This document shows positions 8,625-64,000 of a stretch of DNA of 64,000 nucleotides, one piece after another. The DNA lies in assembly GCF_012273655.1 (NCBI RefSeq), contig NZ_JAAWWP010000007.1:186001-250000 (forward strand). Reading direction: 5' to 3'. Each line of letters opens with the position of its first letter. Within the stretch, counting starts at the first letter, position 1. A program made the translations under genes and the position numbers. The notes under the pieces are model-generated. The model had not been told where the DNA came from. It did not search any database and saw only the letters and a list, made by a program, of their open reading frames with translations. This stretch comes from Streptomyces physcomitrii (GTDB taxonomy: Bacteria; Actinomycetota; Actinomycetes; Streptomycetales; Streptomycetaceae).

Positions 8625-9503
8625 TCACCGAGGCCCCCGCACCAACCGTGAAGCGGACGTCAGGGTCGCGCGGGCCTCGCGTTCGGTGAGGCCGGTGGTG
8701 AGGGCGGCCTTGATGAGGGCGTGGCTGAGGGTTTCGCCGAGGCCGTTCTCGTAGGCGCGGCAGGCGGCCCAGAAGAGGCGGGTGTTGCGCTGGCCCTCGT
8801 GCGCGGCGAGGACGAACTGCACGAGCCCCTGTCCGGCGCCGGGCGGGGTGGTGCCGCCCGCCGGGTGTTCCGGGCGGGCCGGGGGCAGCAGCAGGCGCAG
8901 CAGCGCGGGCGGGCAGGGCGCGGGCGGCAGCAGGGCGGTGCCGGGGATGGTGCGGTACTCGCCGTGGTCGGTACGGGAGCCGGGGCCGACCAGGTAGCCG
9001 CCGGCGCCGCGGACGTCGATACCGGGGGCGAGCCGTCCCGCCGAGTTGGGCACCACGACGTCCGCGGGGCCGCTCAGCCAGACATGGCGGCCCTCGCTCG
9101 GCGTCACCACCACGACCGTGTCCGGGATGGTGAACAGGTGCCGCAGGGCGAGTTCGCGCAGCGCGGCCGAGGAGTCCGTACCGGACTTGGTGTCGAGGTC
9201 GATGCCGATCAGGTGGTGCGGGGGCAGTCCGCAGGCGATGCCGTAGCCGGTGGCCCAGGGGGCGGCGGCGAAGAGTTCGCGGACGCGTGCGGGATCCGTG
9301 GTGGCGTCGTGCACGCCGTGGCCGGGGCGGCCGCACTCGCCGTGGCACGGGGCGGGCCCGGCCTCGTCCCGGTGGGGGGAGGGCAGCGCGGGGAGTTTGG
9401 TGCGGGACAGGGGGATGACGGCCAGCCCGCGTTCGGCGGCGGACAGGGCGTGGGCGAGGGCCAGGGCGACGGGGGGCACGGCATGCCGGGCGGTGGTGGC
9501 CAT
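8625..9503 (-). CDS. Bifunctional DNA primase/polymerase (Prim-Pol domain)
   Basis: A 292-residue archaeo-eukaryotic-type Prim-Pol protein. The catalytic carboxylates IDLDTK (D102, D104), the histidine motif RHVWLSG (H140) and a third acidic residue in GIDVRG (D163) are all present. A Cys/His cluster (PCHGECGRPGHG, 52-63) near the N-terminus is typical of the actinobacterial family. Prim-Pols synthesise primers or fill gaps, and many come from plasmids or phages, but this one stands alone without a helicase domain or partner. ATG at 9503 has GGAG 4 nt upstream and a LexA-like box 12 nt upstream, so damage-inducible expression is possible. Confidence 0.88.
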   Translation of the reverse strand: MATTARHAVPPVALALAHALSAAERGLAVIPLSRTKLPALPSPHRDEAGPAPCHGECGRPGHGVHDATTDPARVRELFAAAPWATGYGIACGLPPHHLIGIDLDTKSGTDSSAALRELALRHLFTIPDTVVVVTPSEGRHVWLSGPADVVVPNSAGRLAPGIDVRGAGGYLVGPGSRTDHGEYRTIPGTALLPPAPCPPALLRLLLPPARPEHPAGGTTPPGAGQGLVQFVLAAHEGQRNTRLFWAACRAYENGLGETLSHALIKAALTTGLTEREARATLTSASRLVRGPR

Positions 9504-9514
9504 GACTCCATGTT

Positions 9515-9528
9515 CGTACGTACGTTCG
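9515..9528 (-). promoter_or_regulatory. LexA/SOS-box-like palindrome upstream of Prim-Pol
   Basis: CGTACGTACGTTCG matches the Gram-positive SOS box CGAACNNNNGTTCG at 9 of 10 defined bases, with one half-site perfect. It lies 12 nt before the Prim-Pol start, where a repressor would block transcription. No binding has been shown. Confidence 0.45.
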
Positions 9529-9885
9529 AAAAAGGGAAGTGGGTTCCGGGCGGGGGACGGGGGAGGGTGCCGTCCCGGCGGTCGGGGGAGTTCGGGTGGG
9601 ATGCAGGGGCCTTGTGGGGCTGGGGAGTTGAGGGTGCGGTGTCCCTCTCCAGGGGATTTACGCCGCCTTGCGGGTTTATCGACAAGTCCTCACGCCTGGG
9701 GGCGAATCGCGGCGGCGGGAGTCGTCAGGGCGGTTCCGGCTGGGCAACTCTGCTCTCGCGACGTCGTGACCACTCCGGGGCGGCGGGCCAACCGCCCCGG
9801 AAACAGCGGTAGTTCAGGTCGCCGGGCGTGACCACCTGCACGGCAGCCCACGCGATCGGACCCGTCCCTACCTGGAGGAACAGAC
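9529..9885. other. Divergent intergenic region, Prim-Pol / small secreted protein
   Basis: I see no gene in these 357 bp. The right end carries the GGAGG ribosome binding site (about 9871) of the secreted-protein gene. No repeat or RNA element is recognised. Confidence 0.4.
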
Positions 9886-10188
9886 ATGGCAAGCATCCGT
9901 ACCGCCCGTGTTCTCGCCGCTGCGGCGGCCCTGCCGCTCGGGGTGGCGCTCTTCGCGGGTGCCGCGGCGGCCGACACCGGGGCGCTCTCGGGCGACCGGG
10001 CCAACGCGGGCGTGGCCACCGTCGGCGCCGGTGCCCGGGGTGCGGGGCCGGGGATCTCCGCGACCGGTCAGCAGCAGGCCGTGGGGGACAGCGCCCGCAA
10101 CGAGAACAACGCGGTGAACATCAACGGCTCCGCGCCCACCTTCGTCGACCAGCGCCACCTGGGCATCGTCTTCACCCCGCTCTGGTGA
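9886..10188 (+). CDS. Small secreted protein
   Basis: A 100-residue protein with a classical Sec signal: basic MASIRTAR, a hydrophobic core, and a likely cleavage site after about residue 28 (AGAAAADT). The mature part is Gly/Ala/Asn-rich, has no cysteine, and ends in GIVFTPLW. It contains QQQAVGDSARNENNAVNING, an Asn-rich stretch loosely reminiscent of amyloid-forming rodlins. It does not show the chaplin signature, so no family is assigned. ATG follows GGAGG at the right spacing. It stands alone. Confidence 0.75.
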   Translation: MASIRTARVLAAAAALPLGVALFAGAAAADTGALSGDRANAGVATVGAGARGAGPGISATGQQQAVGDSARNENNAVNINGSAPTFVDQRHLGIVFTPLW

Positions 10189-10742
10189 GCCGCGGCCCTC
10201 CGGGGGCTGGGCCTCCTCCCGCGCGGGCTGCCGGGAGGGGTCCGGGGGGCCCGGGGGTCGCGGCCCGAGGGGTGACGACCTGTGCGGCGGTGCTTCGGCG
10301 CCGCCGCACAGGTGTGTGCGGGGAGGGCGGTCGCACAGGTGTGTCCGGGGTCAGGTGCACAGGGGTGTGCGGGTTCAACTGCCTCCGGGTTCAGGTCTGT
10401 CCGGGTGCTCGTGGCCGTCGTCCCGCCCGGTACACCCGGTACCGGGGTGTGCGGAGGCAGGTGGCGTACGGGTGGCCGGGTACCGGTAGATGGGTCCGGG
10501 GGCAAGTCGCGCTGCCCGTGCGGGAAGGCCGTCGGGGAAGACGGGGAGGGAGGCGGCGGAGGGGATCCGGGCCCGTGCGGTGAGGTGCCCCGAGTCCGTC
10601 TCGGGGCCAACCCCCAAGGGGGTGCGGGGGTCCCTCCACCCACAGGAGGTGAGGCGTTCGCCGCCCGTACAACCTGAGGGGGACACCGCTTCGGCACCTC
10701 CGGCCGATCCCCGTGCGTAGGGGGCACTTCTAGCGTGGAGCC
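10189..10742. other. 554-bp GC-rich intergenic region with degenerate GTGTG repeats
   Basis: No supported gene is seen on either strand. From about 10290 to 10380 a GCACAGGTGTG-like motif recurs four times with variation, which looks like a decayed minisatellite. The right end is the promoter region of the sigma factor gene. Confidence 0.4.
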
Positions 10743-57873: not shown

Positions 57874-57888
57874 TGAAAATGATTATCG
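57874..57888. promoter_or_regulatory. Zur-box-like palindrome
   Basis: TGAAAATGATTATCG matches the Streptomyces Zur box TGAAAATGATTTTCA (from memory) at 13 of 15 bases with the 7-1-7 layout. It is the most AT-rich spot in the region and overlaps a possible -10 (TATCGT) for the rightward operon. It does not fit the DmdR/IdeR iron box. Fur-type binding remains possible. Confidence 0.6.
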
Positions 57889-58074
57889 TTAGTGTGTGTC
57901 TCGGTCAAGACGGCTTCCGGCTGTCCGTGGGGCTGTCGGCTGTCCGTGGGGCTGTCGGCCGACGGCCGAACCGCCCTGCGGGCCCGGCGCCCCGGCCGCA
58001 CCGGACCGACCGCCCCCTCGCTGAGCCGCGACGGGCGGCGCCCTGGCGTACCGGCGGCGAGAAGCAGCGACAGC

Positions 58075-58125
58075 AAGCACTACGAGCACCACCACAAGCA
58101 CTACGAGCACCACAAGCACGGCAAA
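58075..58125 (+). other. Histidine-rich codon block in the operon leader
   Basis: Read in the same frame as the ATP-grasp gene, this segment encodes KHYEHHHKHYEHHKHGK (8 His in 17 residues), built from a direct repeat AAGCACTACGAGCACCAC. The frame is open back to a GTG at 57892. It could be an upstream peptide, an N-terminal extension, or chance low complexity. Confidence 0.35.
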
Positions 58126-58152
58126 CGACGGGACGAGAGAGGGAGGCGCAGC

Positions 58153-59448
58153 GTGGCTCATCTGCTGATGGTCGAGAGCTGGGTGGGGTCGATGAGCAGG
58201 CTCCTGCCCCGGGCGATCCGCGAGGGCGGGCACGAGTTCACGTTCCTCACCCGGGACCTGCACCACTACCTGCGCGCCGCGCCGGAGGGCACCGCCCACC
58301 CGCTGCTCGGCGCCCGCAACATCCTCACCGCCGACACCAACGACCTCGGCGAGGCGCCCGCCACCGGCCCCGGAATCCCGGACGGCGGCCTCCTCCCGTA
58401 CGTGGAGCGGCTGCACCGGAGCCTGGGCTTCGACGGGGTGCTGACCTCCTGCGACTACTACCTGCCCGCGGTCGCCCGGATCGCGGAGCACCTCGGCCTG
58501 CCAGGGCCCTCCTACGCGGCGGTCTCGGCGGCCTGCCGCAAGGACCGTACGCGGGAGGTGCTGGCCGCGGCCGGTCTGCCGGGGCCGGGGTACGCGCGCT
58601 GCGCCGACCTGGCCGAGGCGACCGCCGCCGCGGCGGAGCTGGGCTATCCGCTGGTGCTGAAGCCGGTGGACCTGTGTGCCGGGATGTTCGTACGCCGGGT
58701 GGACGACGAGCGCCAACTCACCGAAGCCCACCGGGCCTTGGCGGGCTTCCCGGTCAACGCGCGCGGCCAGCGGCGCGAACCGGTCGTCCTGCTGGAGGAG
58801 TTGCTCGACGGACCCGAGGTCAGCGTGGAGACCGTCTCGTACGGTGGCCGTACCCGGGTGGTCGGGGTGACCGACAAGAGCATCGGCGGGGCGCCCGCCT
58901 TCATCGAGACCGGGCACATGTTCCCGGCCGCGCTGGACGCCGAACAGGCCGCCGGGGCACGGGAGACGGCCCTGCGCGCGGTGGCGGCGCTGGGGCTCGA
59001 CGAGGTGGTGGCGCACACCGAGATCAAGCTCACCCGGCGCGGTCCCCGGGTGGTCGAGGTCAATCCGCGCCCGGCCGGGAACCGGATCACCGAGCTCGTC
59101 CGCCATGTCACCGGCATCGATCTCGCCGCCGCCTGTGTGGAGGTCGCCCTCGGCCGGGAGCCCGAACTCACGCCCCGGGACACGGGCTTGCGCAGCGCGG
59201 CCGTGGGCTTCCTGGTCCCGGAGCGTGCAGGGGTCCTCGAAGCCATCGACGGCCGGGACCGGCTGGACGCCGAGCAGGCCGAGCTGATCGAGGTCCAACT
59301 CGCCGAGCCGGGACGGGCGGTGAAGGCGGCGGGCAGCAACAACGAGTACCTCGGGCATCTGATGGCCGGGGACCCGGAGGGGCCGGGCGCCCGCGCCCGT
59401 GTCGAGGACCTGCTCGCCCAGCTCTGTCCCCGGATGGTGTCCCTGTGA
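58153..59448 (+). CDS. ATP-grasp amino-acid/peptide ligase
   Basis: A 431-residue carboxylate-amine ligase of the ATP-grasp superfamily. The N-terminal Rossmann-like part (LLMVESWVGSMSRLLPRAI) is followed by the ATP-grasp core: GYPLVLKPVDLCAGMFVRRV, LLEELLDGPEVSVETVSY and the metal-binding EVNPRPAGNRITEL (E302, N304). This resembles L-amino-acid ligases such as BacD. It would join a carboxylate to an amine with ATP cleavage. GTG at 58153 has GGGAGG 6 nt upstream. It heads a five-gene or longer operon; its TGA overlaps the next gene's GTG. A Zur-like box lies 265 bp upstream. Confidence 0.9.
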   Translation: MAHLLMVESWVGSMSRLLPRAIREGGHEFTFLTRDLHHYLRAAPEGTAHPLLGARNILTADTNDLGEAPATGPGIPDGGLLPYVERLHRSLGFDGVLTSCDYYLPAVARIAEHLGLPGPSYAAVSAACRKDRTREVLAAAGLPGPGYARCADLAEATAAAAELGYPLVLKPVDLCAGMFVRRVDDERQLTEAHRALAGFPVNARGQRREPVVLLEELLDGPEVSVETVSYGGRTRVVGVTDKSIGGAPAFIETGHMFPAALDAEQAAGARETALRAVAALGLDEVVAHTEIKLTRRGPRVVEVNPRPAGNRITELVRHVTGIDLAAACVEVALGREPELTPRDTGLRSAAVGFLVPERAGVLEAIDGRDRLDAEQAELIEVQLAEPGRAVKAAGSNNEYLGHLMAGDPEGPGARARVEDLLAQLCPRMVSL

Positions 59449-60440
59449 CCGCCCGCCACCTCACCAACGCACCAACCAACGCACCAACCAACACACCCAC
59501 CAACGCATCCGCATCCGCGCCCCGCCCCGCGGACCCCGCCCTCCCCCTGGCCTCCTCCTACGAGGACCTGCTCACCCGGGTCCGCGCCGGTGAGCTGGGC
59601 CCCGACCCGCGCGAGGAGCGTGTGGCGGTGGCCTTCGGCACCCGGCAGGCGGTGCGGCACGACGGGCGCGGCGGCGGCTACCGCAACGAGGTGCTGAGCC
59701 TGCGGCTCGGTGCCGCGGTGGGTTCCTGCGCCGTGGAGCCGGGGCAGCTGCCCGCCGAGGCGCTGGACGACTGCGTGGGCGCCGATGTGGCGAGCCTGCT
59801 CGGGCATCCGCTGCCCGCGGTGCGGGTTGCCGCCCTGGACGCCTATCTGCTGCGGCACTTCCCGCACCTGCCGGAGAACGGCGCCTCGCCCTGGTCGCTA
59901 CCGCCGGGCAGTTCGCTGGAGAAGTCCCGGGCGCGGGCCCGCGGTGTCGTCGGCCTGCTCGACCTGCCGCCCGGCGCCCGGGTCCTGGTGGTGGGCGTCG
60001 TCAACTCCCTCCTGGAAGCCCTGCGCGAGCGCGAACTCGCCTACGTACCCTGCGATTTGAAGGGCGGCACCACCGAGTGGGGCGAGCCGGTGCGCACCGG
60101 TGCCGCCGAGGCCCTGGACGAGTGCGCGGCGGTGCTCGCCTCCGGGATGACGCTCGGCAACGGCAGCTTCGAACCGCTGCGGCGGCACGCGAAGCACCAC
60201 GGCAAGCAGCTGGTGATGTTCGCGCAGACCGGCAGCGCGGTGCTGCCGCGGCTGCTCGGCGCCGGGGTGAGCGCGGTCTGCGCGGAGCCCTACCCCTTCT
60301 TCTGGCTGGACGGCGGCCCCGGTCTCGTGCACCGCTACCGGGCCGCGCCCGGCCGCTCCGGGGCCACCGCCGCGTCCCGCCGCTCCGGGGCCGCCGCGGA
60401 CCGGTCCGCCCGTACCGCCGGGAACGGGGCCGCCCGATGA
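59445..60440 (+). CDS. DUF4213/DUF364 protein (putative heavy-metal chelation, Rossmann-like)
   Basis: A 331-residue protein. After a TNAPTNAPTNTPTNA repeat, residues ~40-140 match DUF4213 (VAVAFGTRQAVRHDGRGGGYRNEVLSLRLG) and ~165-320 match DUF364 (GVVGLLDLPPGARVLVVGVVNSLLEALRE, CAAVLASGMTLGNGSFEPL, EPYPFFWLDGG). Pfam describes these as putative heavy-metal chelation domains; the reaction is unknown. It is translationally coupled on both sides (GTGA with the ligase, ATGA with the PLP enzyme). In this operon it may act on a metal complex or a metallophore precursor. Confidence 0.85.
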   Translation: MTARHLTNAPTNAPTNTPTNASASAPRPADPALPLASSYEDLLTRVRAGELGPDPREERVAVAFGTRQAVRHDGRGGGYRNEVLSLRLGAAVGSCAVEPGQLPAEALDDCVGADVASLLGHPLPAVRVAALDAYLLRHFPHLPENGASPWSLPPGSSLEKSRARARGVVGLLDLPPGARVLVVGVVNSLLEALRERELAYVPCDLKGGTTEWGEPVRTGAAEALDECAAVLASGMTLGNGSFEPLRRHAKHHGKQLVMFAQTGSAVLPRLLGAGVSAVCAEPYPFFWLDGGPGLVHRYRAAPGRSGATAASRRSGAAADRSARTAGNGAAR

Positions 60441-61630
60441 GCCCCGCCCCCGCCCTGCTCGCCGCCCCGCGCGGCAACCGAGAGCTGCTCGCCCTCCTCG
60501 GACGTACCCCGATGGCCCGGATCACCGCCGAACTGCCCTGCCCGCAGCCCGGGTTCTGGGCCAAGCTCGAAGGGCTCGGCGCGGGCGGCATGAAGGCACG
60601 GCCCGCCGTCGCGATGCTGCTCGGCGCCCGCGAGCGCGGCGAACTGCGCCCGGGCGCACCGGTGGTGGAGTCCACCTCGGGCACCCTCGGCATCGGCCTC
60701 GCCTTCGCCGGACAGGCCCTCGGCCACCCGGTCGTCCTGGTCGGCGACAGCGAACTGGAGCCTTCCGTACGGCAGTTGCTGCGCACCTACGGGGTGCGCC
60801 TGGAGCTGGTGGAGCGGCCCGCCGTGCAGGGCGGCTGGCAGGCGGCGCGGCTGGCCCGGCTGCGGGAGCTGCTCGCCGAACTGCCCGGCGCCTACTGGCC
60901 CGACCAGTACAACAACCCGGATAACACCGCGGGTTACGCGTCTCTCGCCGCCGAGATGGCCGCCGGACTCGACCATCTGGACGTCCTGGTGTGCAGCGTC
61001 GGCACCGGCGGGCACAGCGCCGGGGTGGCCGCGACCCTGCGCCGCCACTGGCCCGCGCTGCGCCTGATCGGCGTGGACGCCACCGGCTCCACGATCTTCG
61101 GCCAGCCCGCGCGGCCCCGTCTGATGCGCGGCCTCGGCAGCAGCATCCACCCCCGCAATGTCGCCTACGAGGCCTTCGACGAGGTGCACTGGGTGGGGCC
61201 CGCCGAGTCGGCCGACGCCTGCCGCAGGCTCGCCACCGGCAACTTCGTCAGCGGCGGCTGGAGCACCGGCGCGGTCGCCCTGGTCGCCGCCTGGGCCGCC
61301 CGCGTCCACCCGGGCGCGGTCGTCGCCACCGTCTTCCCGGACGGCCCGCACCGCTATCTCGGCACCGTCTTCGACGACGGCTTCGCCGCCGCGCACGGAC
61401 TCGACCTCGCCCGTGCGGCCCGGCGGCCGGTCGAGATCCCGCACCCGGCCGCCGCCGAGGCCACCGGCTGGGCCCGCTGCCGCACCGTGACCGACCCGCT
61501 GCGGCGCCCCGCCCGCGTCCCCGGCCGCCCCGCCCGCGTCCCCGGCCGCCCCGCCCGCGTACCCGACCGCCTCGCCCCCGCGGCCGAGCCCGCCGCCCTC
61601 GCCCCTCTCGCACCCCCGGAGGCACCGTGA
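60437..61630 (+). CDS. SbnA-like PLP-dependent enzyme (cysteine synthase superfamily)
   Basis: A 397-residue fold-type II PLP enzyme. The Schiff-base lysine is K53 in GGMKARPAV, the substrate loop is ESTSGTLGIGLA and the phosphate-binding loop is SVGTGGHSAG. From memory of SbnA, several blocks match: GGWQAARLARLRELL, GAYWPDQYNNPDN, GVDATGSTIFG, FVSGGWSTGAV and VFPDGPHRYLGTVFDDGF. SbnA condenses O-phosphoserine with glutamate toward 2,3-diaminopropionate. Here the amino-acid partner is unknown and no SbnB homologue is visible. The C-terminal ~45 residues carry RPARVPG repeats. ATG at 60437 overlaps the previous stop. Confidence 0.88.
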   Translation: MSPAPALLAAPRGNRELLALLGRTPMARITAELPCPQPGFWAKLEGLGAGGMKARPAVAMLLGARERGELRPGAPVVESTSGTLGIGLAFAGQALGHPVVLVGDSELEPSVRQLLRTYGVRLELVERPAVQGGWQAARLARLRELLAELPGAYWPDQYNNPDNTAGYASLAAEMAAGLDHLDVLVCSVGTGGHSAGVAATLRRHWPALRLIGVDATGSTIFGQPARPRLMRGLGSSIHPRNVAYEAFDEVHWVGPAESADACRRLATGNFVSGGWSTGAVALVAAWAARVHPGAVVATVFPDGPHRYLGTVFDDGFAAAHGLDLARAARRPVEIPHPAAAEATGWARCRTVTDPLRRPARVPGRPARVPGRPARVPDRLAPAAEPAALAPLAPPEAP

Positions 61631-62778
61631 AGGCCGCTCAGCAGACCGTGCGGCTGCGCCTCGCCGAACCGCTGCGGATATCCCGGTCCACGATGGCCGC
61701 CAGGGACGCCGTCTGGCTGGCGGTCGAGCACGAGGCCCGTATCGGCCACGGCGAGGCGGTGACCAGCACGTACTACGGGCTGGACGCCGGGACGCTCGGG
61801 CGGCTGTGCGCCGAGGCGGGCCGCGAGCTGGCCCGGTTCGCCGAGCCGGAGAGCGCCCTGGACGCGCTGCGCTCCGGTGGACTCCGCTGCGCCCAGGGCC
61901 CGCCCGCGGTGACCGCGGCCGTCGACTCGGCCCTGCTCGACCTGGTCGGCAAGCGCGCGCTGCGCCCGGTGCACCAGCTGCTCGGCGCCACCGAGCCGCC
62001 CCGGGCGGCGACCGCGCGCACCCTCGGCATCAGCGCCCCCGCCGAGGCCGCGCGGACCGCCGCCCGGCTCGCCGCGGCGGGCTTCACCACACTCAAGATC
62101 AAGGCCGGATCCGCCGACCCCGCGGACGACCTCGACCGGGTCGCCGCCGTCCAAGCCGCCGCCCCCGGGGCCGAGTTGCTGCTCGACCCGAACGGCGCCT
62201 GGAGTCTCGCGCAGGCCCGCGCCCTGCTCCCGCGCTTCGCCGCGCTCGGCGTCACCGCGGTCGAGCAGCCCCTCGCGCCCGGCGACCCGGAGGCCCTGGC
62301 CCGGCTGGCCGCGACCTCCCCGCTGCCGGTGATCGCCGACGAGGACGCGGTGGGCCTCGCGGACGTGCGGCGCCTCGCCGGGCGGGTGCACGGCATCAAC
62401 GTCAAGCTCGCCAAGTGCGGCGGACCCAGCGCCGCGCTGCGCCTGGCCGAGGCGGTCGAGGGCAGCGGCACCGCGCTCATGCTCGGCTGCCTCACCGCCA
62501 GCAGCCTCGGCCTCGCCCCCGCCGTCCACCTCGCGGGGCGCGCCCGCTGGACCGACCTCGACGGGCACCTGCTGCTCGCCCACGACCCGTGGACCGGCAT
62601 CGGCGGCGAGCACGGCGTGGTGGCCGCGAGCCGCCTGCCCGGCCTCGGCATCCGCCGCCGGACCTCCGGAGAGCGAGCGGCCGGAGACCAGACCCCTGGA
62701 GACCGGACCCCCGGAGACCCGATCCCGGGGAACCCGCCACCCGGACCCCCGACCCCCGAGAACCGGGCGACCGCATGA
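61627..62778 (+). CDS. Enolase-superfamily enzyme, dipeptide-epimerase-like (MLE subgroup)
   Basis: A 383-residue enzyme with the muconate-lactonising subgroup signature. The acid/base K-x-K is K157/K159 in TLKIKAG. Metal ligands are D187 (LDPNGAW), E213 (VEQPL) and D238 (ADEDA). The second-side lysine is K260 in NVKLAKCGG, and DLDGHLLL near the C-terminus is as in L-Ala-D/L-Glu epimerases. It should deprotonate an alpha-carbon next to a carboxylate, either epimerising a dipeptide or an N-substituted amino acid. The last ~40 residues are Gly/Pro/Thr repeats. The start codon overlaps the previous stop. Confidence 0.9.
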   Translation: MKAAQQTVRLRLAEPLRISRSTMAARDAVWLAVEHEARIGHGEAVTSTYYGLDAGTLGRLCAEAGRELARFAEPESALDALRSGGLRCAQGPPAVTAAVDSALLDLVGKRALRPVHQLLGATEPPRAATARTLGISAPAEAARTAARLAAAGFTTLKIKAGSADPADDLDRVAAVQAAAPGAELLLDPNGAWSLAQARALLPRFAALGVTAVEQPLAPGDPEALARLAATSPLPVIADEDAVGLADVRRLAGRVHGINVKLAKCGGPSAALRLAEAVEGSGTALMLGCLTASSLGLAPAVHLAGRARWTDLDGHLLLAHDPWTGIGGEHGVVAASRLPGLGIRRRTSGERAAGDQTPGDRTPGDPIPGNPPPGPPTPENRATA

Positions 62779-62945
62779 GCCGCGCCCGGGTGACCTGCCA
62801 CCGGATGCGGCGCCTGCTGCTGCGCGCCACCGCGCCGCGTACCGCCGCCGGGCACGGCACCACCTCCCACACACCGGACCACCCACCGCACGAGGGCCAC
62901 GGCGCCGCCGACGGCCCGCACACCGAGGGGCACAGCACGGCATGA
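62775..62945 (+). CDS. Histidine-rich 56-residue peptide
   Basis: ATG at 62775 overlaps the epimerase-like stop (ATGA), and its own TGA overlaps the MFS start (ATGA). Both overlaps support real translation. The peptide has a basic first half (MSRARVTCHRMRRLLLRA) and a His-rich second half with SHTPDHPPHEGHG and GPHTEGHS: 8 His and 1 Cys in total. No family is recognised. It could bind Zn/Ni/Cu, chaperone metal to a partner, or serve as a ribosomal precursor. It could also be a chance linker frame. Confidence 0.5.
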   Translation: MSRARVTCHRMRRLLLRATAPRTAAGHGTTSHTPDHPPHEGHGAADGPHTEGHSTA

Positions 62946-64000
62946 ACGCACTGCGCGAAATGCGGAGGTTCCCGCTCGCCGTCCAGTTGCTCCTGGTCAA
63001 CCAACTCGGCGTCAACACCGGCTTCTACCTGCTCGTCCCCTATCTCGCGGTGCACCTCGGGGAGGACCTCGGGATGTCCGCGGCGCTCGTCGGCATCGTC
63101 CTCGGGGTGCGCAACCTCAGCCAGCAGGGCCTGTTCCTGATCGGCGGCTCGGCCGCGGACCGGCTCGGCGCCCGCGGTGTGATCATCGCGGGCTGCGCGC
63201 TGCGCACCCTCGGCTTCGCGCTGTTCGCGCTCGGCGACTCGCTCGCCGTGCTGCTCGCCGCCTCCGTGCTCAGCGGGCTCGCCGGGGCGCTCTTCAACCC
63301 GGCCGTACGCGCCTATCTGGCGACCGAGGCCGGGGCGGACAAGGCCGGGGCCTTCGCGCTGTTCAACGTCTTCGCCACCACCGGCGCGCTGATCGGGCCG
63401 CTGCTCGGCAGCGCCCTGCTCCTGGTCGACTTCCGGGCCTCCGCGCTGACCGCCGCCGCGATCTTCGCCGTGCTCACCCTCGCCCAGGCCCTCGTGCTGC
63501 CCGCCCGCGAGGTGGCGCCGACCGGCTCCAGCCTGCTCGGCGACTGGCGGGAGGTCGTCTCCAACAAGCGGTTCGTGGCCTTCGCGCTCGCCATGGTCGG
63601 CATGTTCACCATGGAGAACCAGCTCTATCTGCTGATCCCGGACGGCGCCCGCCGCGCCACCGGCTGGGACGGCGCCGCGGGCCTGGTCTTCCTGGTCGGC
63701 ACCGTCACCAACCTCAGCCTCCAGCTGCGGATCACCCGCGCCCTCAAGTCCCGTGGCAGCAGGGCGCGATGGATCAGCGGCGGGCTCGCCCTGATGGGCC
63801 TCGCCTTCCTGCCGCCGATGACGGTCGCCGCGCTCGCCACCCCGGACGGACTGCTGCCCGCGATCCTGCTCGCCCTGCCGGTGCTCGCCGGCGCCCTGCT
63901 GCTCTACCTCGGCGTGATGATCGCCCAGCCCTTCGTCATGGAACTCGTCCCCGACTTCGGCCGCGGCGAACTCACCGGCACCTACTTCGGCCTGTTCTAC
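62942..64000 (+). CDS. MFS transporter (3' end beyond window)
   Basis: The first 353 codons of a major-facilitator protein are present; the rest is cut by the window edge. About 10 hydrophobic helices are seen. The N-terminal LAVQLLLVNQLGVNTGFYLLVPYLAVHL and the motif-A-like loop GSAADRLGARG after helix 2 are clear. Its place at the end of a putative metallophore operon suggests export of the product, as CntE and SbnD do in staphylococci. ATG at 62942 overlaps the stop of the His-rich peptide gene. Confidence 0.88.
   Translation, partial: MNALREMRRFPLAVQLLLVNQLGVNTGFYLLVPYLAVHLGEDLGMSAALVGIVLGVRNLSQQGLFLIGGSAADRLGARGVIIAGCALRTLGFALFALGDSLAVLLAASVLSGLAGALFNPAVRAYLATEAGADKAGAFALFNVFATTGALIGPLLGSALLLVDFRASALTAAAIFAVLTLAQALVLPAREVAPTGSSLLGDWREVVSNKRFVAFALAMVGMFTMENQLYLLIPDGARRATGWDGAAGLVFLVGTVTNLSLQLRITRALKSRGSRARWISGGLALMGLAFLPPMTVAALATPDGLLPAILLALPVLAGALLLYLGVMIAQPFVMELVPDFGRGELTGTYFGLFY

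Follow-up and report, generated by a model that had tools for sequence, protein, structure and literature searches.

A reading frame of only 56 codons, eight of which specify histidine, is located between the gene of an enolase-superfamily epimerase and that of an MFS transporter in the window, by which we mean the whole stretch of 64,000 nucleotides of Streptomyces physcomitrii DNA that was analysed. Does this frame constitute a small gene of its own? The initial annotation had taken it for a translationally coupled microprotein whose His content, in a putative zinc-controlled operon, suggested metal binding. We compared the frame with chance expectation and with the corresponding junctions of related genomes. 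No publication on this operon, or on such a His-rich peptide, was found in the open-licence literature.

The operon and its Zur-type box

All features described here are on the forward strand. The operon is preceded by a Zur-type box at positions 57874-57888 (TGAAAATGATTATCG), which agrees with 14 of the 15 positions of the S. coelicolor Zur motif tGaNNatSatNNtCa as it is given in PMC5472717. This box is the sole match in the window at up to 2 mismatches, and 100 shuffles yielded none. The first gene (58153-59448) encodes an ATP-grasp ligase (Pfam ATP-grasp_4, 6e-18); its GTG start at 58153, behind the sequence GGGAGG, was picked by eye. It is followed, with a GTGA overlap, by a gene (59445-60440) for a DUF364-like protein putatively involved in heavy-metal chelation (Pfam DUF364, 2e-6; no match in NCBIfam), and then, with an ATGA overlap, by a gene (60437-61630) for a PLP enzyme resembling SbnA and cysteine synthase (Pfam PALP, 1e-52), whose match to the NCBIfam model SbnA (2e-71, 241 bits) is under the curated cut-off of 350. 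The next gene (61627-62778) encodes the amino-acid/dipeptide epimerase (Pfam MR_MLE_C, 1.5e-40), which matches the NCBIfam model racemase_DgcA at 6e-67, under its curated cut-off. Beyond the His-rich frame (62775-62945), the MFS transporter gene (62942-64000; Pfam MFS_1, 1e-28) runs past the end of the window and encodes a protein of 420 aa (positions 8942-10204 of locus L039). Overlaps of 4 nt of the type xTGA are present at all five junctions from the ATP-grasp gene through the MFS gene.

The frame after the MFS gene presumably encodes a class I methyltransferase, which it resembles by eye. The NikA-like substrate-binding protein encoded downstream of the MFS gene scores 138 bits against NCBIfam, where the cut-off is 600. 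The putative metallophore operon thus delimited spans positions 57874-64000 of the window and 8942-12820 of L039, behind a Zur-type box that recurs in relatives.

A scan of 84,980 species genomes, from which near neighbours of the window may be absent, resulted in 228 candidate epimerase stretches. The best 80 of these were used, and they provided the 79 relatives in which the box and the junction lengths were analysed. In 73 of the 79, a site with at most 3 mismatches from TGAAAATGATTATCA precedes the ATP-grasp gene by no more than 500 nt, a count for relatives that stands without a shuffle control; one of the six others, L057, has no usable upstream DNA. The presence of the box upstream of the operon and its recurrence in relatives support the prediction that the operon is Zur-regulated, and the idea of a zinc-controlled operon put forward in the initial annotation is thereby strengthened. 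Judged from its gene content, this widespread Streptomyces operon looks like an uncharacterised zinc-metallophore system.

Chance expectation for the frame at 62775-62945

The frame is genuinely present in the sequence as it was first described. Translation of positions 62775-62945 confirmed a low-complexity peptide of 56 aa containing eight His residues, located at positions 9, 27, 32, 36, 39, 42, 49 and 53 of the peptide. At its upstream end, the ATG of the frame (62775-62777) overlaps the TGA stop codon of the epimerase gene (62776-62778), and at its downstream end the TGA of the frame (62943-62945) overlaps the ATG start codon of the MFS gene (62942-62944), so that ATGA sequences are present at 62775-62778 and 62942-62945. 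Stop-start overlaps, the mark of a frame coupled by termination-reinitiation, are therefore found on both sides. As proposed initially, this arrangement would allow ribosomes that terminate on the epimerase gene to read the frame and then the MFS gene. The 4-nt ATGA overlaps are also a feature of the overlapping unidirectional termination-reinitiation gene pairs treated in PMC10666635 and PMC6728339; unlike in those pairs, the middle frame of the window is no conserved gene, and its coupling is predicted from sequence. The origin of gene overlaps is the topic of PMC3887535.

The double overlap is no strong coincidence and requires no special design, because the xTG of an xTGA stop invariably lies in the -1 frame. 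ATGA and GTGA together make up 560 of the 1332 stop contexts in the six frames of the window (42%). The register of the His-rich frame is free of stop codons from position 61806 on, far upstream of its ATG, and of the sequences obtained by shuffling its 168 nt 2000 times at the dinucleotide level, 68% remain open. The eight His residues exceed the mean of 4.8 obtained in these shuffles, yet at least eight are reached in 6.1% of them. Within the 64 kb, 526 of the 78,839 stop-free windows of 56 codons (0.67%), at 31 separate places, contain at least eight His.

The third-position GC content, which had been suggested for comparison between orthologous operons, is 0.93 in the His-rich frame, against 0.76 in one and 0.69 in the other of the remaining frames; these values apply to the window only and favour the frame. 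Its codon score of 8.0 nats ranks in the top 3.5% among 1180 windows read in non-coding frames and in the bottom 2% among 390 windows of true coding sequence. Hence, its codon use resembles that of coding sequence, though weakly, and the frame goes beyond chance only partly. A duplicated or mobile piece was discarded as a source of the frame: the genome itself contains one strong copy, and the seven other matches have E-values of 0.10 to 1.4.

The epimerase-MFS junction in relatives

Of 295 genomes of the genus (own genome included), 67 contain a match to the epimerase, as do 93 of the 392 genomes of an overlapping genus draw (own genome not included) and, at a stricter threshold, 52 of the 394 genomes of a family draw (own genome included). 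The two genus draws have different centres and share the same genome handles, and the 392 genomes come from a larger group. Altogether, 177 loci were read. Three of these were left out, L017 and L082 for want of an MFS match at the threshold and L142 for want of a match to the epimerase. The 174 usable loci represent 135 distinct junctions, including that of the window.

None of the 134 other distinct junctions contains the His-rich frame, while the epimerase and the MFS transporter are both present (tblastn, E up to 1e-5). The only usable loci in which tblastn detected the peptide are the two of the window itself. In 131 of the 134 junctions, the epimerase stop is located 1 (84 junctions), 14 (45) or 17 (2) nt before codon 7 of the MFS gene, which leaves no space for the frame. 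The remaining three have distances of 56 nt in one case and of 427 and 436 nt in two related genomes. The epimerase stop is overlapped as ATGA or GTGA in 132 of the 134, and the relatives appear to keep the coupling between the epimerase and MFS genes. Among the relatives listed, the nearest full-length one of the epimerase, detected in the family draw of 394 genomes, is 76% identical over the full query; for one partial match (83% over 145 aa, genome G196), the frame is absent from the corresponding junction (L132) too. When the junction DNA was used as query, it matched the MFS part of relatives and, among the matches listed, none but the window itself reached further back than position 62915, that is, beyond the last 31 nt of the frame.

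A search with the peptide in the 391 other genus genomes yielded four weak matches (E-values of 1.8e-4 to 9e-4), never at the operon: the matches of G153 and G321 are on a contig other than that of the epimerase gene, and for G060 and G373 the epimerase search gave no match. The peptide has no family match in Pfam or NCBIfam, and only one sequence of it is known.

On the strength of the 134 other junctions surveyed, a conserved microgene was rejected. Conservation of the frame and of the spacing of its His residues in orthologous operons had been looked to as a sign of a dedicated metal-binding microprotein, and neither was encountered: no relative examined has a homologue of the peptide at the locus, and both neighbouring genes are retained in every junction from which the frame is missing. 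The latter outcome is the one that the initial annotation had itself named as contrary to its proposal, and it was obtained with a nearest full-length epimerase of 76% identity. The proposal of a dedicated microprotein is left unsupported. The eight His in 56 residues and the zinc-type operon are what the frame has in common with His-rich metal-binding peptides as we know this general kind; it differs from them in having neither conservation at the locus nor a family match, and shuffled sequences already average more than half as many His residues. An alternative is a lineage-specific small gene, newly arisen or inserted. Its product, a zinc-binding peptide rich in His, would be made together with the exporter when zinc is limiting, consistent with the ATGA sequences at both ends, the high GC3, the His content and the Zur-type box of the operon. 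We regard such a gene as quite improbable, given its absence from all other junctions, the four weak matches elsewhere in the genus, the lack of a protein family, the frequency with which shuffles attain its His count, and an optimal frame switch located upstream of its start (see below).

A GC-rich spacer of about 430 nt separates the epimerase and MFS genes in L140, L146 and L151, which belong to two related genomes (G154 and G031). These spacers were considered as homes of a similar gene and rejected: the frames that restart there on the epimerase stop, of 50 and 64 codons, begin alike and then diverge, and they stop short of the MFS gene. Coupling between the epimerase and MFS genes seems to be lost in these genomes.

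A probable displaced epimerase tail

The relation of the window to the other junctions was analysed in a midpoint-rooted tree, built with FastTree from 133 rows in which the epimerase and MFS protein sequences were concatenated (two of the 135 distinct junctions left out). In this tree, the window belongs to a clade with 25 members (local support 0.977) and, within it, to a smaller one with 11 (0.952). In the 24 other members of the clade, the epimerase stop is located 14 nt (22 members) or 17 nt (2 members) before MFS codon 7. The TGA that ends the His-rich frame shares its frame with the epimerase stop of all 24 and, in the case of 22, also its distance from MFS codon 7. In a codon-level comparison of nine clade junctions, the MFS start region reads ATGAAC in the window, GTGAAG or ATGAAG in six junctions and GTGAGG in one, and in these seven the TGA is the epimerase stop; in L010 and L012, the MFS start and the epimerase stop are both located one codon earlier. 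Therefore, by position and frame, the TGA ending the His-rich frame is the epimerase stop of the clade.

The segment upstream of this TGA corresponds to the hypervariable epimerase tail of the relatives. Like the His-rich frame, the C-terminal tails of orthologous Streptomyces epimerases follow the epimerase core and precede the MFS start, are of low complexity and variable length, and are sometimes repeat-built or His-rich (L127, L187, L042). The difference is that the tails of the relatives continue the reading frame of the epimerase, whereas in the window the stop at 62776 separates it. The median tail length is 17.5 aa (114 distinct junctions, window included), and in L187 the tail reaches up to 100 aa in frame, about the 46 plus 56 required in the window. 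Tails of 72-100 aa, mostly repeat-like by eye, are present in L187, L042, L043 and L099; judged by eye, they are in-frame cases of the same tail growth. The tail of L127 (G225), from the same clade, contains eight His in 46 aa. A high His content as a general trait of the tails is ruled out, however, because His makes up only 3.2% of the residues past the first six in the 113 other distinct junctions. No alignable in-frame homologue of the peptide was detected by tblastn among the other usable loci. The tail of the window could not be aligned with that of any relative compared, which makes a base-by-base placing of the frame shift impossible.

The present epimerase gene of the window ends in a low-complexity tail of 46 aa (62638-62775), which contains a 15-nt tandem repeat of 5.2 copies at 62681-62758 (Tandem Repeats Finder). 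Codon scoring placed the optimal switch from the epimerase frame to the His-rich frame at 62736, with positions 62725-62739 within 2 nats. A microgene complete in itself would be expected to give a switch at 62775, which scores 3.7 nats lower; this is a modest preference for a switch upstream of the ATG, the optimum being about 39 nt away from it. The optimum falls inside the tandem repeat, no frame of which scores well as coding sequence; up to about 62739, the array has a better score in the present epimerase frame than in the His-rich frame. The 15-nt unit is free of indels, so that gain or loss of whole units leaves the frame unshifted.

Drift of this kind affects the operon of the window as a whole, all of whose junctions are inflated. 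Measured in 79 of the best 80 relatives, the four junctions have median lengths of 62, 53, 38 and 41 nt, compared with 137, 134, 134 and 304 nt in the window, and these window lengths are matched or exceeded by 3, 2, 5 and 0 of the 79, respectively. The distance from the box to the start of the first gene is 279 nt in the window and has a median of 108 nt in the relatives (range 14-174, n=78), taking the last pattern match before the gene; the best box site of L049 is located at 255 nt, and a long leader is thus not unique to the window. Tandem repeats are located at several of these lengthened places. The 5' leader of the window operon is about 170 nt longer than the relatives' median, and a 21-nt tandem repeat within it (58074-58119), just upstream of the chosen start, is His-rich in the ATP-grasp frame (KHYEHHHKHYEHHKH).

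We consider it probable that the His-rich frame is the displaced 3' end of the hypervariable epimerase tail and serves at most as a relay frame. In the relatives of the clade, the epimerase frame continues through the tail to the xTGA overlapping the MFS start; for two relatives, the stop comes one codon sooner. In the lineage of the window, the tail would have grown by repeats and continuity of the frame would have been lost around 62725-62740, by a frame-shift event that we infer. Ribosomes would now terminate epimerase synthesis at the ATGA at 62775, presumably restart there in the old frame, produce the low-complexity peptide of 56 residues, and terminate on the original TGA overlapping the MFS start codon. 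The frame would then be at most a relay that keeps translation of the MFS gene coupled, its His content would be a by-product, and the peptide would probably have no function of its own. An intergenic insertion that preserved both overlaps would, however, look alike.

The gap between the epimerase and MFS genes is 163 nt. In the reporter work of PMC10666635 on six gene pairs of E. coli and Haloferax, a distance of about 20 nt was enough to remove nearly all coupling. By that measure, a gap of 163 nt without a relay would break the coupling, and a relay would matter.

The MFS gene might instead be translated from its own Shine-Dalgarno-like site, with the His-rich frame hardly translated and acting as a neutral spacer. 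The sequence GAGGGG is present 12-17 nt upstream of the MFS ATG, the GGAGG-like sites of clade members are somewhat closer (at 8-13 nt in L058, for example), and the spacers of L140 and L146 do without a conserved frame reaching the MFS gene. We think this unlikely, however, since the frame has a coding-like codon use, the operon retains coupling overlaps at its other three junctions, and in nearly all relatives the epimerase stop is part of an ATGA or GTGA.

A displaced tail could also be the product of a sequencing or assembly indel. There would then be no true stop at 62776, and the epimerase would have a tail of about 100 aa extending to the MFS start, of the size seen in frame in L187. 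The positional evidence would be identical, the site is a GC-rich repeat and the assembly consists of 51 contigs; on the other hand, the assembly is 99.99% complete with 0.07% contamination, and the other genes of the operon are intact. This, too, seems to us a rather doubtful explanation. A case of gene birth, in which the tail displaced from a metallophore enzyme gene would, within a single Streptomyces lineage, have become a separately started His-rich peptide, co-translated with the presumed metallophore exporter and binding or handing over zinc, is in our estimate very improbable.

If the tail was displaced as we favour, the locus illustrates how coupling to the next gene can survive the loss of a tail frame, because an xTGA stop automatically restarts in the -1 frame. 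The putative zinc-metallophore operon is of more interest than the small His-rich frame within it. The frame exemplifies how gene ends that drift and are built of repeats may, in GC-rich genomes, yield small frames that mimic microproteins, with tidy double ATGA overlaps and an unusual composition.
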